Assembly (NCBI RefSeq): GCF_012849215.1
Contig: NZ_CP051682.1
Location: 2,976,001-3,040,000 of the forward strand
Reading direction: 5' to 3'
Length of the DNA: 64,000 bases
Source: Mucilaginibacter robiniae
GTDB taxonomy: Bacteria > Bacteroidota > Bacteroidia > Sphingobacteriales > Sphingobacteriaceae
The position numbers and the translations under genes were made by a program. Position 1 is the first letter of the stretch. Every line of letters begins with the position of its first letter. Below the pieces are notes generated by a model. The model made no database searches. It had not been told where the DNA came from and saw nothing but the letters and a program-made list of their open reading frames with translations. This document shows, piece by piece, positions 8,931-15,123 of this stretch.

Positions 8931-10298
8931 TTAGCTTAATTCAGCAAAGTACTTATAGAATAAAGGGATAGTTTCAATACCCTTATAATAATTGTAAATG
9001 TCGTATTTCTCGTTAGGGGAATGCAACGCATCACTGTCTAATCCAAAACCCATCAGCACGGTTTTAATACCCAGCTCGGCTTCAAACAAAGCTACAATCG
9101 GTATGCTACCGCCACCCCGGGTAGGGATTGGTTCTTTACCGAACGATTCAGTTATGGCTTTTTGAGCGGCTTGGTAGGCTACGCTATCGGTAGGTGTTAC
9201 TACCGGCTCGCCACCATGATGCGGCGTAACTTTTACCTTCACATAAGGCGGAGCAATGTTCAGAAAATGCTGTGTAAACAATTCGGTAATCTTTTCGGAG
9301 CTCTGGTTTGGCACCAAACGCATGGATATTTTAGCATTCGCTTTGGATGGTAACACGGTTTTAGCCCCTTCGCCAATGTAGCCACCCCAAATACCGTTTA
9401 CTTCCAACGTTGGGCGTGTGCCGGTACGTTCTAAAGTGCTATACCCCTTTTCGCCCCATACTTCGTCAATATCCAGATCTTTCTTGTATTCTTCTTCGTT
9501 GTAAGGTGCGCTGTTTAACGCGTTGCGCTCTGCATCGCTCAGTTGCACTACCTCATCATAAAAGCCCGGGATGGCAATGTGGTTGTTCTCATCATGCAAA
9601 GAAGCAATCATTTTAGCCAGTATGGTAGCTGGGTTAGCTACTGCACCACCATAAACACCAGAGTGCAAATCGCGGTTCGGTCCGGTTACTTCTACTTCCA
9701 GGTAAGATAAGCCACGCAAACCGGTTTCTAGTGATGGGGTTTCCATGCTCAGCATAGAAGTATCTGAAATCAATACCACATCAGCTTTCAGGCGTTCTGT
9801 GTTCGCTTTCACAAATATGCCCAAATTGGATGAGCCTACTTCTTCCTCACCCTCAATCATGAATTTGATATTGCAGGGTAGGGTGTTGGTTTGCATCATC
9901 AGCTCAAAAGCTTTTACGTGCATGTAAAACTGGCCTTTGTCATCACAAGCACCACGGGCATAAATCTTACCATCGCGTACGGTAGGTTCAAACGGCGGTG
10001 TTTTCCATAGTTCCAATGGATCGGCTGGTTGAACATCGTAATGCCCATACATCAATACCGTAGGCTTGGCTGGGTCAATAATTTTTTCGCCATACACAAT
10101 AGGGTAGCCGGCAGTAGGACAAACTTCTACATTATCGGCACTGGCTTCGCGCAGCTTGGCAGCGGTATATTCGGCCGTTTTCAGTACATCTGCCTTGTAT
10201 TTAGGATCGGCGCTTACTGAGGGGAAGCGCAATAATTCAAACAACTCATCTAACATGCGCTGCTTGTGCTCTTCAATATATTGCTTAATGACTTGCAT
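8931..10298 (-). CDS. M20 family metallo-dipeptidase (CNDP/carnosinase-like)
   Basis: The 455-residue zinc dipeptidase shows the M20 ligands in order: H86 and D88 in MYGHYDVQPAD, D119/D120 in ARGACDDKGQ and the glutamates of IEGEEEVGSSN (about 149-153). A lid domain follows (RDLHSGVYGGAVANPATIL near 225), and the C-terminus carries the final histidine region DALHSPNEKYDI. There is no signal peptide, so it probably acts on dipeptides in the cytoplasm. A TAnnTTTG element on the minus strand (10327-10320) suggests a short leader. Confidence 0.92.
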   Translation of the reverse strand: MQVIKQYIEEHKQRMLDELFELLRFPSVSADPKYKADVLKTAEYTAAKLREASADNVEVCPTAGYPIVYGEKIIDPAKPTVLMYGHYDVQPADPLELWKTPPFEPTVRDGKIYARGACDDKGQFYMHVKAFELMMQTNTLPCNIKFMIEGEEEVGSSNLGIFVKANTERLKADVVLISDTSMLSMETPSLETGLRGLSYLEVEVTGPNRDLHSGVYGGAVANPATILAKMIASLHDENNHIAIPGFYDEVVQLSDAERNALNSAPYNEEEYKKDLDIDEVWGEKGYSTLERTGTRPTLEVNGIWGGYIGEGAKTVLPSKANAKISMRLVPNQSSEKITELFTQHFLNIAPPYVKVKVTPHHGGEPVVTPTDSVAYQAAQKAITESFGKEPIPTRGGGSIPIVALFEAELGIKTVLMGFGLDSDALHSPNEKYDIYNYYKGIETIPLFYKYFAELS

Positions 10299-10489: not shown

Positions 10490-11437
10490 ATGCGCTATCA
10501 GAAAGTAACATGCTTAATGCTTTTTGTTTTGTGGAGTGTTCTAGTTCGGGCACAGGCACCCAGTTGTAGTGCGGCATCTCAGTTTTACAGTAAAGATAGT
10601 ATTAACGTGACCACCTTTGGAGCCAGTACAGTGCAAGGAATAGGCGGGGTATCTTTTCAGCATTACCTGCAACAAAATATTGCATTATGCTACACAGGCC
10701 GAACAGTAACTATGACGAATAATGGCATTGGTGGAGAAACTACTACGCAAGGTCGGGAAAGATTTGATCAGGCCATACAAGGGCGTACTGGGTTTGTGCT
10801 CATTTTGATGGGAACGAATGATGCACAAGCCATAGTGAACAAAAAAATGACGCTCAGTGAAACAGAAGCGAACATGCGTTATTTCATTGAAGAATCATTG
10901 AAATACAAGCTAGTACCGATAATTGGTACGCTGCAGTTTTTTAATGATAAAGGCAATCAATTCTTTAAAAATGCTAATTTTTATGTAATTGCCATCAACC
11001 GGCTGTACCGGCAGCTAGCTAAAGAATACAAAGTTTATATAGCCGATATTAATACAGCTATAGGCCGAAACAGCAGCTTGTACCAAGACAATATACACCC
11101 TAATGATGAGGGGTATAAACTGATTAGCTATGTTTGGTTTGACGCCATTAACAAAGCTATTGAAGATAAGCTCCTGCTTATCGGTTTAAATCAAAACTAT
11201 CCTAATCCGGTACATGGTGATACACAAATCGGTTTTAGTTTGTCGCAAGCAGGCCGGGTACAAATCAAGTTGTACAATATGAATGGTGCAGCTGTTAAAA
11301 GCATTATTGATGAGTATGAAAGCTCAGGGTATCATATTATCAGCACCAATTTAACCGGGCTAAACGCGGGCATGTACATTTATGTAATGGAGGTAGGTGG
11401 CAGGCAACTCAGTAAAAAGCTGTTGATTATGAAGTAG
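10490..11437 (+). CDS. Secreted SGNH/GDSL-like hydrolase with type IX secretion sorting domain
   Basis: A signal peptide (about residues 1-22, ending LVRAQA) leads into an SGNH-hydrolase domain: block I TTFGASTVQG with the nucleophile serine near residue 46, block II NNGIGGETT near 88, block III MGTNDAQ near 110 and block V DNIHPNDEGY near 194. From about residue 232 comes a Por/T9SS type A sorting domain (LNQNYPNPVHGDTQIGFSL, then YNMNGAAV and the final KKLLIMK). The protein should cross the outer membrane by the type IX system and be released or anchored there. SGNH enzymes cleave esters of lipids or sugars; the substrate is unknown. Confidence 0.88.
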   Translation: MRYQKVTCLMLFVLWSVLVRAQAPSCSAASQFYSKDSINVTTFGASTVQGIGGVSFQHYLQQNIALCYTGRTVTMTNNGIGGETTTQGRERFDQAIQGRTGFVLILMGTNDAQAIVNKKMTLSETEANMRYFIEESLKYKLVPIIGTLQFFNDKGNQFFKNANFYVIAINRLYRQLAKEYKVYIADINTAIGRNSSLYQDNIHPNDEGYKLISYVWFDAINKAIEDKLLLIGLNQNYPNPVHGDTQIGFSLSQAGRVQIKLYNMNGAAVKSIIDEYESSGYHIISTNLTGLNAGMYIYVMEVGGRQLSKKLLIMK

Positions 11438-11817
11438 CCATACTATATGGGCTAAATCATATTCTTTATAGCTTTAGGCAAGCTACCAACACTGGTGTTT
11501 TTACCAGAGTTCCTGCCGGGGCTTGTTTATACTTATACAGGCCCCGGCTTTGTTACTCTCTATATATAAATGTAACAGTTCTTGTAATAAAGCCGATGTT
11601 TATCAATGATCATCATCAGCAATTGCAGAATATTCTTGCCTGAATTTTTTATTGCTCGCTTGCAATGCTTTCAGCTTTAATCTCTGCTTTACGGCTAACG
11701 TAACTAGTTTCTATAGTTTACGTTAAATCCTATGTTATAGTAGCGCTATGGTTTAAAGTAAGCACTAAAAAAGATATAAACCTTTTACGGTAATAGTGTA
11801 CAGTAGGTGATTAAAAA
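11438..11817. other. Intergenic region, 380 bp
   Basis: The region holds the terminator at 11515-11548 and otherwise AT-rich sequence with no convincing ORF. A weak inverted repeat (aacgtaact near 11698 and agtttacgtt near 11717) is visible. Its right half is the 3' flank of the first small lipoprotein gene. Confidence 0.6.
11515..11548 (+). terminator. Intrinsic terminator of the SGNH hydrolase gene
   Basis: gccggggc (11515-11522) pairs with gccccggc (11541-11548); with one G-U pair the stem extends to 12 bp. It is followed by tttgtt and lies about 80 bases past the stop. Confidence 0.65.
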
Positions 11818-11977
11818 TCAACCATTGCCATGACCGCCGCTTGATGGACGAGCATCACCAGTACTTAAAATTACATCATTGCTCTGGGTAGAGGGTTTTA
11901 CGCTGTTTTCTTTAGTGCAAGAAGATACTACACCAGTAGCTAAGAATAGGGCTGCAATTACAAAAATCTTTTTCATG
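11811..11977. repeat. 167-bp perfect direct repeat, copy A
   Basis: Every base of 11811-11977 recurs at 12229-12395, in the same orientation and 418 bp away. The identity starts just outside the stop codon and ends one base beyond the ATG, so it covers almost exactly one gene. The flanks on both sides are unrelated. Confidence 0.9.
11818..11976 (-). CDS. Small lipoprotein, 52 aa, copy A of a duplicated family
   Basis: The ORF is below 60 residues. It starts MKKIFVIAALFLATGVVSSC, a signal peptide with a lipobox (VSSC, lipidated Cys20), followed by 32 polar residues: TKENSVKPSTQSNDVILSTG, then DARPSSGGHGNG. The mature part is short, charged and ends in a Gly-rich stretch. The protein should sit as a lipid-anchored peptide in the periplasm or at the outer membrane. 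Copy B at 12236 is identical and a dead copy lies between them. It is divergent from the TPR sensor at 12781. No family is recognised. Confidence 0.75.
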   Translation of the reverse strand: MKKIFVIAALFLATGVVSSCTKENSVKPSTQSNDVILSTGDARPSSGGHGNG

Positions 11978-12071
11978 ACTATAATATTGAATGTTGGGGG
12001 GTGAAAAAATGTATAAAACTTAATAAAGTTGTGTACTATAATGTTGATTGTTCAAGGCTTGTCTTGCCTGC

Positions 12072-12194
12072 CTTAATGCTTAAAATTACGTCGTTGCTTT
12101 AGGTAGATGGGTTTACACTATTTTCTTTAGTGTAAAAGAAGACACTACACTGATAGCTGTAAGCAATGCTGCAATTACAAATGCTTTTTTTCGA
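12072..12194 (-). pseudogene. Degenerate third copy of the small lipoprotein gene
   Basis: The minus strand keeps clear homology to the neighbours: GTAATTGCAGC, GTGTCTTCT, ACTAAAGAAAA and GACGTAATTTTAAGC all align in order. The start codon is replaced by TCG, an extra base lies in the early poly-A run, the lipobox TGC has become TTTAC (a 2-base insertion, so a frameshift that destroys the cysteine), and the CAG codon for Gln31 reads TAA. The C-terminal Gly-rich part is gone. It is therefore a pseudogene. Confidence 0.75.
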
Positions 12195-12228
12195 CAATAT
12201 GATTAGGCATGGAAGCAATAACTGGCTT

Positions 12229-12395
12229 TTAAAAATCAACCATTGCCATGACCGCCGCTTGATGGACGAGCATCACCAGTACTTAAAATTACATCATTGC
12301 TCTGGGTAGAGGGTTTTACGCTGTTTTCTTTAGTGCAAGAAGATACTACACCAGTAGCTAAGAATAGGGCTGCAATTACAAAAATCTTTTTCATG
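12229..12395. repeat. 167-bp perfect direct repeat, copy B
   Basis: Identical to 11811-11977, while the degenerate copy between them has diverged widely. This pattern fits recent gene conversion or a recent copy event limited to the gene. Confidence 0.9.
12236..12394 (-). CDS. Small lipoprotein, 52 aa, copy B of a duplicated family
   Basis: This gene is identical in sequence to the one at 11818-11976, with the same lipobox (VSSC) and Gly-rich C-terminus, but its upstream region differs, so the two copies probably have separate promoters. It is the copy nearest to the divergent TPR sensor, 386 bases away across an AT-rich stretch. Function unknown. Confidence 0.75.
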   Translation of the reverse strand: MKKIFVIAALFLATGVVSSCTKENSVKPSTQSNDVILSTGDARPSSGGHGNG

Positions 12396-12780
12396 GTTCT
12401 TATTAATTATTGTTGTTACTTATTATTTATATGTACTTATTATAAAATCACTTCAACTTTTTACACTGGCTAATAAGCCTAAATGCATCTTTAATATTCA
12501 TTCGAGCTATAAAATTCTTCCAAAGCTCTCTTTGTTATTACGTTTTCAAAAACAATATTGTTGCGTAATAATATTATTAAAACAGCATAATTATATAAAG
12601 TATAATATCATTTGATTGACATTAAATCTTTGTTTTATAGCTTATTATCTTTCAACATTACAAATTTAAATAAGTTTTATAATATTTAGAAAAAAAAATA
12701 AAAATTTTTTTCCGAGGCGGTTGAAGCATATTATTTCTATATTTAAAACATTTAAGGTTAGTAAACGTAATACCCCTTTG
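12395..12780. other. Divergent AT-rich intergenic region, 386 bp
   Basis: It lies between lipoprotein copy B (minus) and the TPR sensor (plus) and is about 80% A+T. A minus-strand TAAATTTG element (12668-12661) fits the Bacteroidota -7 consensus but lacks a clear TTTG partner. A run of 9 A and 6 T precedes the sensor gene. No ORF is seen. Confidence 0.5.
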
Positions 12781-14202
12781 ATGAAGAGAATTTTTACCTG
12801 TGTTATACTGCTGCTGTTTACAGTAAGTGTATATGCTAGTATCATAGAAAACAGCATAAAGCAAGACACTAACGAGGTAGAAAATTTGTATAATCATGCT
12901 TTTGATGTGCGCCTTACTGATGCCATGCAGACGGTAAAATATGCAGACCGTGCACTGGAGCTTGCTAAACAACTTGATTTCAAAAGAGGAGTAGCTGAAT
13001 CTTATCGTGTAAGAGGTATAGGGCAGTTTTATTTAGGGCATAGTGAAGACGCCATTGATGATTATTTAAATGCCTTAACCAAGTTTCAGGATATAAAAAG
13101 CTATATCGGGCAGGTAGAGGTAAATATCAATATCTCATCGCTGTACCAAGATATTGATTATGATAAGTGTATTGAGTATTTGAACAATGCGCTGGAGTTA
13201 TACCAATCGAAGAAGTTAAAGCAAAGTGATGTATTGGCCTCTATTTACATGAACTTTGGTAACGTTTATATACGAGAAAAAAGTTTTACCAATGCCTTGC
13301 GCAGCTATGATAAGATTTATGAACTTGCATCGCACGCCAATAATGAAGAGATGAAAACGATGGTGCTGGAGAATAAAGGCAGTATCTATTATGAGTTGGG
13401 TGATAAGGAGCGGGCGATATCCTATTACAAAAGGGCAAGTGTACAGGCCAAAGATTTAGACTTGAACCAACTGGTAGCCGAAATTGATTTGAACCTGGCT
13501 GATGTATACCTATCAGAAGATAACTATGGTGATGCCGAGAAAGTATTGAATGAAGGTTATGGCTATTCTACCCTGGTAAAAAGTGATAAATTAACCCGTT
13601 ATTATTTAGCCACCCGCTATAAACTAGAAACTAAACGTAAAAATTTTGAACGGGCTTTATATTATTTGCAAAATATCTATAAGCAGGATAGTACCAAGTT
13701 TAATTCCAATAGTTCGGCAGCATTAAGTATATACCAAGTAAAATTTAACCAGGGGCAGCTTGAATTGGAAAAAGAACGCCTTACCCAGAGGCAGAAGTAT
13801 AATATTATTTTGGCCGTATTGTTAGGGCTTATTATTGTACTTTTAGTAGGTAATGTAAAACGCAAAGCGGAAACTAACAAGCGTTTAACTGGGCTTAACA
13901 ACGAGATTTCGGTACAAAAGGATAACCTGGACAGGATTAATCACCACTTGGAAGAAATTATAGATGAGCGTACCAAAGATTTACAGATCAAGAATAAAAA
14001 GCTATCCGAGTATTCTTCTTATTTGTCTCACCAAATACGTGGACCTATTGCTACGCTTAAAGGGTTGCTCAACCTGGAACGTGAAGGTTTAGTAGGACAG
14101 GAAGAGTGCATTAATATGATGGTGAAATGCGTTAATGAAATTGACGATAAAATTGTAGATATGAGCGATATGTTACATAACCCTGAGCGGGCTGGTATGT
14201 AA
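12781..14202 (+). CDS. Periplasmic TPR sensor with histidine-kinase dimerisation helix but no ATPase domain
   Basis: ATG 12781 gives a signal peptide (MKRIFTCVILLLFTVSVYAS) and 473 residues; an upstream TTG at 12721 would bury it. Residues about 25-320 form TPR-like helical repeats (SEDAIDDYLNALTKF, SFTNALRSYDKIYEL, DKERAISYYKRASVQ). A membrane segment follows at 341-359, then a coiled coil, then LSHQIRGPIATLKGLLNLE with the H-box histidine at 417. The protein ends 56 residues later (HNPERAGM) with no N, G1 or G2 box. It may be phosphorylated by another kinase or act as a scaffold. It is divergent from the small lipoprotein genes. Confidence 0.85.
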   Translation: MKRIFTCVILLLFTVSVYASIIENSIKQDTNEVENLYNHAFDVRLTDAMQTVKYADRALELAKQLDFKRGVAESYRVRGIGQFYLGHSEDAIDDYLNALTKFQDIKSYIGQVEVNINISSLYQDIDYDKCIEYLNNALELYQSKKLKQSDVLASIYMNFGNVYIREKSFTNALRSYDKIYELASHANNEEMKTMVLENKGSIYYELGDKERAISYYKRASVQAKDLDLNQLVAEIDLNLADVYLSEDNYGDAEKVLNEGYGYSTLVKSDKLTRYYLATRYKLETKRKNFERALYYLQNIYKQDSTKFNSNSSAALSIYQVKFNQGQLELEKERLTQRQKYNIILAVLLGLIIVLLVGNVKRKAETNKRLTGLNNEISVQKDNLDRINHHLEEIIDERTKDLQIKNKKLSEYSSYLSHQIRGPIATLKGLLNLEREGLVGQEECINMMVKCVNEIDDKIVDMSDMLHNPERAGM

Positions 14203-14221: not shown

Positions 14222-14518
14222 TTACTTAAAATTGAGTGGCAAGCTGGAATGTATCTGTGCTTCCATTAACCCCAGGTACATGCAGTACCAAGCCACCATA
14301 TGTAATATAAGCAGCTTGCGGTGGCGTTTATAGCCTTGAGTTTCGAAAGCTAAAGTTTCCTGACCTGCTGTTACAAAATAGCGCACTTCACCTTTACGTG
14401 GCTTAAACTTTGATTTTAGCATATCGCAAACTGTTACCTTTAATTTGGTTTGCGGATCATGAATGGTGCTGTTTTTAACAGCATCATTCATAGATATAGA
14501 TAATAGATAGTTAGTCAT
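14222..14518 (-). CDS. Small hypothetical protein, 98 aa
   Basis: The ORF starts MTNYLLSISMNDAVKNSTIH and contains a basic stretch (KSKFKPRKGEVRYFV) and a partly hydrophobic C-terminal part (KLLILHMVAWYCMYLGLM). No family is recognised. It is convergent with the TPR sensor, 19 bases apart. A short palindrome (ctatac, 6-base gap, gtatag; 14525-14542) lies 6 bases before its ATG and may be an operator. The coding call is moderate. Confidence 0.5.
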   Translation of the reverse strand: MTNYLLSISMNDAVKNSTIHDPQTKLKVTVCDMLKSKFKPRKGEVRYFVTAGQETLAFETQGYKRHRKLLILHMVAWYCMYLGLMEAQIHSSLPLNFK

Positions 14519-14754: not shown

Positions 14755-15123
14755 TTACACTGCAATATAATGGCGACTATGTAATTCCTCGTACAGTTCA
14801 ATTACTTTACGTTGCAGATTGGTGATTTCGGCCTCACGGTCAATCAGCTTTTGTTGGGCTTTATTCATGCTTGAATATTGCTTTTCAGTTTCGGTTAAGC
14901 CTAGGCCTAATAGCTGCACTACACTAATTTCAAAAATAGTGGCAATCTGCTCCAGGCGCGATAAATTGACATCGGTAATGCCGGTTTCGATTTTTGAAAA
15001 AGCTGGAATGGATATGCCTAATCGGTTTGCCATATACTCCTGGCTCCAACCGCGCTGATGGCGAAGCGTACGGATATTTGTACCAACTGAATTTACTGCT
15101 TTGTTATTGATTGAATCGCTCAT
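14755..15123 (-). CDS. XRE-family helix-turn-helix regulator with C-terminal coiled coil
   Basis: The 122-residue protein has an HTH_3 domain at about residues 15-70: IRTLRHQRGWSQEYMANRLG, then the recognition helix ISIPAFSKIETGITDVN and LSRLEQIATIFEISVVQLLG. Residues 78-115 form a predicted coiled coil (NKAQQKLIDREAEITNLQRK) that probably makes it dimerise. It is monocistronic. The upstream region carries arms ttaactaata/tattagttaa (15189-15198, 15235-15244) that could be its own operator. The target genes are unknown. Confidence 0.88.
   Translation of the reverse strand: MSDSINNKAVNSVGTNIRTLRHQRGWSQEYMANRLGISIPAFSKIETGITDVNLSRLEQIATIFEISVVQLLGLGLTETEKQYSSMNKAQQKLIDREAEITNLQRKVIELYEELHSRHYIAV

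Follow-up and report, generated by a model that had tools for sequence, protein, structure and literature searches.

A duplicated lipoprotein gene of Mucilaginibacter robiniae is a reduced form of a widespread precursor array that looks like a peptide-signalling locus

Peptide quorum sensing through TPR receptors has been described for Gram-positive Bacillota. In RRNPP(A) systems, a pro-peptide of 10-100 aa with a Sec signal is encoded at a gap of about -60 to 400 bp from a receptor of 250-500 aa, which is cytoplasmic, has neither signal sequence nor transmembrane (TM) segment, combines C-terminal TPRs with an N-terminal HTH or three-helix bundle and binds the mature peptide after its import (PMC10075063). 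For the Phr pheromones, duplication of whole genes as well as intragenic duplication of the peptide is documented (PMC5199041, PMC11343458), and a parallel between Phr and fungal pheromones has been drawn (PMC5199041). In Porphyromonas gingivalis, a TPR sensor is found in FimS, the ligand of which is unknown (PMC11053733).

Here we analyse a window of 64,000 nucleotides of M. robiniae (contig NZ_CP051682.1 of assembly GCF_012849215.1, positions 2,976,001 to 3,040,000), by which we mean this whole stretch. It contains a pair of identical lipoprotein genes, the reduced form that a widespread precursor array takes in this one species; the array is encoded divergently to a TPR receptor-like gene. 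Across the family, this locus looks like an undescribed peptide-signalling system in Bacteroidota. Our search of openly accessible journal articles found no such system in this phylum. Loci and genomes are referred to by our own L and G numbers, and the features of the window are:

8931..10298, minus strand: M20-family metallopeptidase, cytoplasmic, no signal sequence; linked to the array by synteny
11818..11976, minus strand: copy 2, 52-aa lipoprotein, same as copy 1; open reading frame 11976-11818, MKKIFVIAALFLATGVVSSCTKENSVKPSTQSNDVILSTGDARPSSGGHGNG
12079-12189, minus strand: decayed middle copy, startless, with a +2 frameshift at the lipobox, Q31 changed to TAA and the C-terminal part missing
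12236..12394, minus strand: copy 1, 52-aa lipoprotein, candidate peptide precursor; open reading frame 12394-12236, MKKIFVIAALFLATGVVSSCTKENSVKPSTQSNDVILSTGDARPSSGGHGNG
12661..12668, minus strand: TAAATTTG, a consensus match that may be the -7 element of a promoter for the array; it precedes copy 1 by about 267 nt
12781..14202, plus strand: receptor-like gene, 473 aa, with signal sequence, about six TPRs, a TM segment at about 341-358, a coiled coil and a DHp, no HATPase

Like the Rap-Phr and RRNPP(A) systems of Bacillota, the locus combines a small pro-peptide with a Sec-type export signal, in which the probable message lies at the C-terminus or close to it, with an adjoining gene for a TPR protein in the range of 250-500 aa, with species-specific variants and with duplication of the peptide both as a whole gene and within the gene (PMC10075063, PMC5199041, PMC11343458). 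Most precursors are 45-100 aa long, with a K/R plus hydrophobic start that is Sec-type as judged by pattern, although some reach about 480 aa, and the gap to the receptor-like gene has a median of 326 bp (range 106-765). The receptor-like protein itself has a TPR_12 match (E 4e-20) and a Rap/LGN-like fold, peptide binding being a prediction. In contrast to the Bacillota systems, however, the genes are divergent, the repeats run to tens of copies, the phylum is Bacteroidota, and the receptor has a signal-like N-terminus followed by N-terminal TPRs predicted to face the periplasm, a TM helix and a C-terminal cytoplasmic DHp; homology was seen in the TPR fold only. Because its receptor is membrane-anchored with the TPRs outward, the locus is not a member of RRNPP, though Rap-like in its presumed working. 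To judge by its AlphaFold model and an alignment, the receptor-like protein shares with FimS the periplasmic TPR sensor between TM segments and the cytoplasmic kinase part, and NCBIfam HK_Porph_FimS is the best partial match to the receptor, at a score far under the FimS cut-off. FimS, however, is a full kinase, whereas the Sphingobacteriaceae-type protein ends after the DHp, without an HATPase or a linked response regulator, and has a dedicated precursor array. Fungal repeat pheromone precursors (alpha-factor type, Kex2-processed) likewise hold tandem peptides parted by basic residues (PMC7329392), but this is an analogy only, as the present system is bacterial, with no Kex2 and a receptor that is not a GPCR.

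The initial annotation had described two identical 52-codon lipoprotein genes with differing flanks and a dead third copy between them, all of which we could confirm. Direct comparison gave 100% identity across 167 nt between 11811-11977 and 12229-12395, from 1 nt 5' of the ATG to 7 nt 3' of the stop, while identity is 62% over 50 nt on the upstream side and 63% over 30 nt on the downstream side, against a background of 61% for unrelated flanks. Both copies are tied to unique flanks within 600 bp, which makes an assembly error improbable, and the block has no further occurrence in the 4.98-Mb, 2-contig genome. The middle copy, with an alignment score of 129 compared to at most 49 in 300 shuffles, has lost its start, has two extra bases at the lipobox and reads TAA at codon 31 (Gln). 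Its final ~14 codons, the stretch that counts in relatives, are missing as well. This leaves the window species with only two working copies. The C-terminal part of copy 1, DVILSTGDARPSSGGHGNG, aligns with LGTGDGG.[DE]RP / LGTGDGTRPSEGG of relatives, but its core, ILSTGDARP, is an odd member beside the clade cores LGTGDGG.[DE]RP; having no Lys before the core and a C-terminal tail, the window's precursors are the least typical of all, which counts against a signalling role. A fourth decayed precursor, supposed by eye at 11438-11810, was rejected, as an HMM built from the second type of precursor in the clade scored no higher there than in shuffles. Beyond the array, at 10490-11437, lies a GDSL lipase that carries a type IX sorting tail and is found in some relatives only.

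A search of relatives for the family, its copy number and its synteny, as proposed at the outset, revealed tandem arrays divergent to one orthologous gene. By protein search of 60 relatives, the lipoprotein family occurs within the genus only, often in tandem (seven matches in G015, four in G005, three in G023), and reading of the closed genome G033 gave seven copies. ORF clustering placed the array divergent to the ortholog of window 12781-14202 in 14 of 16 loci; outside this count are L041, which ends at a contig end, and L048, an unrelated match. Array and receptor-like gene stay together though far-side genes change in L033 and near-side genes in L035, L036, L040, L042 and L044. The receptor ortholog was found in 34 of the 37 genus genomes searched, the three misses being genomes that are 58-71% complete, and, at the level of the order, in 84 of 250 genomes. 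Of the 16 genera sampled there, 8 have it, and these belong to a single family; class-wide (395 genomes), the remaining matches are weak and mainly over the TPRs. No plasmid-borne receptor copies were found.

For a survey of precursors, 3.2-3.6 kb upstream of the receptor-like gene were read in 94 loci. Arrays lie beside the gene in 87 of the 91 loci with at least 1 kb of upstream sequence, 80 of them recognized by pattern and seven by reading (L086, L097, L102 and L113, and L115, L123 and L126, of which the last three have one small lipoprotein each, without an Asp-ended core). One locus, L081, was unreadable, its array being interrupted by sequence gaps, and no array was found at three of the 91, L070, L087 and L142; such receptor-like genes without an array speak against the signalling interpretation. 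One of them, L087 (G009:C2:757499-758572), is a second, truncated receptor-like paralogue in a two-contig genome. Under fixed rules, 290 of 419 candidate divergent-strand ORFs were Asp-ended, compared to 1 of 138 ORFs in control sequences, two of which were taken per locus; a few of these candidates are pieces of the adjacent peptidase gene, and their removal leaves 378 core-bearing genes, 287 of them Asp-ended. The linkage between array and receptor is thus not due to chance. Copy numbers from drafts are minimum values, because in many genomes contigs end within the array or just short of it, and some arrays hold runs of N (L069, L071, L085, L088, L095, L097, L111 and L112).

Among the surrounding genes, the M20 metallopeptidase precedes the array at 64 of the 82 loci of relatives, and at 18 of 18 in other genera; this could be mere synteny, or the enzyme could degrade imported peptides. 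Downstream of the receptor gene, the window encodes a 98-aa protein with a GTIHDP motif (14222-14518) and an HTH regulator (14755-15123). At most loci of the genus the receptor gene is succeeded by these two and then by UvrD; in G023 both are absent from the locus. An Rfam search of the locus returned no credible RNA element.

The limits of the identical block had been ascribed to gene conversion or to selection for the same product under two promoters. The former part of this interpretation is supported. Among arrays with comparable copies, coding identity exceeds that of both flanks in 35 of 38 (the exceptions are L103, L078 and L114). The window is the extreme case, with 1.00 for coding sequence versus 0.62 and 0.63 for the flanks, and L144, a relative of the window locus, is similar (0.87 versus 0.62 and 0.62). 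Gene-limited identity between copies is therefore the rule in these arrays, which include older tandem arrays of the same family in relatives, and it fits gene conversion and concerted evolution. A recent gene-sized duplication, in place of conversion between old copies, would explain the exact identity, including synonymous sites, by a single event. We nevertheless consider it unlikely, since the genus had tandem arrays ancestrally, the two copies have a decayed one between them, and gene-bounded identity is seen again in other arrays. With old tandem copies and a dead copy between, gene-bounded conversion is the simplest reading, and the 167-bp identity would then reflect a recent conversion event between the two surviving copies.

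Two promoters, by contrast, are not supported. The Bacteroidota-type -7 motif (TANNTTTG) has its sole match in the region upstream of copy 1 (12668, minus strand). Across the arrays, it is present upstream of 22 of 85 first genes (7 in shuffles), but before only 1 of 334 inner genes, for which the median spacing is 55 nt. Since the motif is nearly absent before inner genes and these are so closely spaced, each array is likely to form one operon with a single transcript. The initial interpretation was also too narrow, in that the receptor-paired array was missed.

The number of small proteins per array is 1-11. They carry Sec or lipoprotein signals (judged by pattern), and the only part they share is a short acidic core with the consensus K-x-(D/N/T)-(L/I/V)-(G/A/S)-(T/S/Q/N)-(A/G/W/Y/F)-D, in which W, Y, F or G replaces A in some species and Lys or Arg nearly always stands three positions before the L/I/V. 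The core lies at the C-terminus or is repeated up to ~37 times within one protein. NKKDVGTAD occurs four to eight times per protein in L035, L036, L042 and L105, TKKDIGTAD is found in L040, L136 and L147, TKKDIGQAD in L044 and L082, and GDKKDVGSAD in L047. Long series are formed by GPGPKRDLGSADFA-type repeats in a 411-aa protein of L075 (KRDLGSAD, 25 times), DKHTVGSGDLA in L143 (11 times), LSDKKSTGSAD in L089 (13 times) and GEKGQTGTGDL-type repeats in L086 (~37 copies), whereas in other genera single C-terminal cores were found, such as KRDLGSYD (L114), DLGTWD (L121), DIGTWD (L117), KKDTTQWD (L109) and KTLGSFD (L118).

Secreted proteins rich in repeats often have a structural role, and TPR proteins serve as scaffolds in general, from which one could construct a different account: the repeat proteins would be structural or adhesive surface parts, the TPR-DHp protein would regulate them or help in their assembly, and the core would be a structural element, not a ligand. 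We regard this as quite improbable, since proteins of 45-60 aa with one C-terminal core coexist with the repeat proteins in the same arrays, with the core alone being shared, and since the receptor-like protein includes a DHp domain whose His is invariant. Bacteriocins, too, are typically fast-evolving tandem small secreted peptides, and the small proteins could by the same token serve antimicrobial or interference purposes, the TPR protein providing immunity or regulation. There is very little to recommend this, considering that the cores are short, acidic and soluble, that no transporter, modification or immunity gene shows consistent linkage, and that no precursor tested had a Pfam or NCBIfam match above cut-off.

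Many precursors have ordinary Sec signals in place of a lipobox, which is absent from 257 of 404. Lipoprotein precursors tend to start with C-x-K-(E/D), with K at +3 in 88 of 97, E/D at +4 in 66 and E/D at +5 in 16 (raw counts). This is close to the surface-export signal LES, C-x-K-(D/E)2 after the lipidated Cys (PMC5080379), of which the precursors usually lack the second acidic residue. The LES-like start and the predicted periplasmic position of the receptor TPRs would also suit a system of envelope self-monitoring, in which the small proteins are reporters of export quality, not messages to other cells. If lipoprotein or Sec export were disturbed, C-terminal cores left in the periplasm would occupy the TPR sensor of the same cell. 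Neither the notion of export reporters nor this particular course of events appears likely to us, as they leave unexplained the species-specific cores, the up to 37 repeats per protein and the many precursors without a lipobox.

Within a species, precursors of different types have core variants that agree better than shuffled ones do (p<=2e-4), and some pairs change together (F/F versus Y/Y in L118/L114, A/A versus G/G in L078/L100). Across 18 phylogenetically independent pairs, however, we found no correlated core change between precursor types (rho 0.05, p 0.42), which argues against a signalling function, and ligand-type coordination between them, being significant against shuffles but not against phylogeny, was discarded.

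In the receptor-like protein, Pfam recognizes HisKA only in the kinase part, and the chain ends ~55 residues after the DHp His, His417, which is present in 80 of 80 receptor sequences. The AlphaFold model (pLDDT 85) is matched in Foldseek and profile searches by peptide-binding TPR superhelices, namely LGN, RapJ-PhrC, Rap-phi3T and RapF. Three Asn residues, N117, N158 and N198, occupy equivalent sites in three consecutive TPRs and are 94-99% conserved among the 80 sequences; in RapJ, Asn225 holds the backbone of the PhrC peptide (PMC3601965), to which the three Asn may be analogous. Mean identity is 45% for the TPR part and 73% for the cytoplasmic DHp part, as one would expect if the sensor diversifies and the output stays constant. 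Having no ATPase domain, the DHp-only end cannot autophosphorylate, which is a further argument against signalling, and no linked response regulator was seen at the loci compared. Elsewhere in the window genome, the cytoplasmic part has one distant match only, a 364-aa DHp-ended protein. Other families of the class likewise have TPR proteins with nothing but a DHp at the end (L158, L159, L161 and L164), with no array within their 1.5 kb flanks.

Weighing these points, we consider it probable, if far from assured, that the locus encodes multi-copy peptide-signal precursors and a periplasmic TPR receptor with a Rap-Phr-like function. We infer export, cleavage near a basic residue, binding in the TPR groove and output via the DHp and an unlinked partner. 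The small proteins would be exported by Sec, and the lipoprotein precursors perhaps flipped to the surface by way of their LES-like start. Proteolysis at the basic residue or residues before the core and at the repeat end would yield short peptides, for example DVGTAD or DLGTWD, which would remain in the periplasm or return to it and occupy the groove of the TPR superhelix, which is lined with Asn. Binding may then alter the state of the DHp, which would act on a partner, either a kinase or a response regulator, whose gene lies elsewhere. Duplication of genes and repeats would raise the peptide dose, with gene conversion keeping the copies alike.

Whether a whole Gram-negative family uses ribosomal, unmodified, multi-copy peptide pheromones, with a dedicated periplasmic TPR receptor that signals via a kinase-less DHp, as an independent invention of the Rap-Phr kind with dozens of species-specific codes, is a proposition to which we give even chances. 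If true, the signal peptides predicted for dozens of species could be tabulated directly with their cognate receptors, and there would be a ligand class for periplasmic TPR sensors that lack known signals, including FimS. The arrays are also a natural system for the dose, redundancy and concerted evolution of signal genes.
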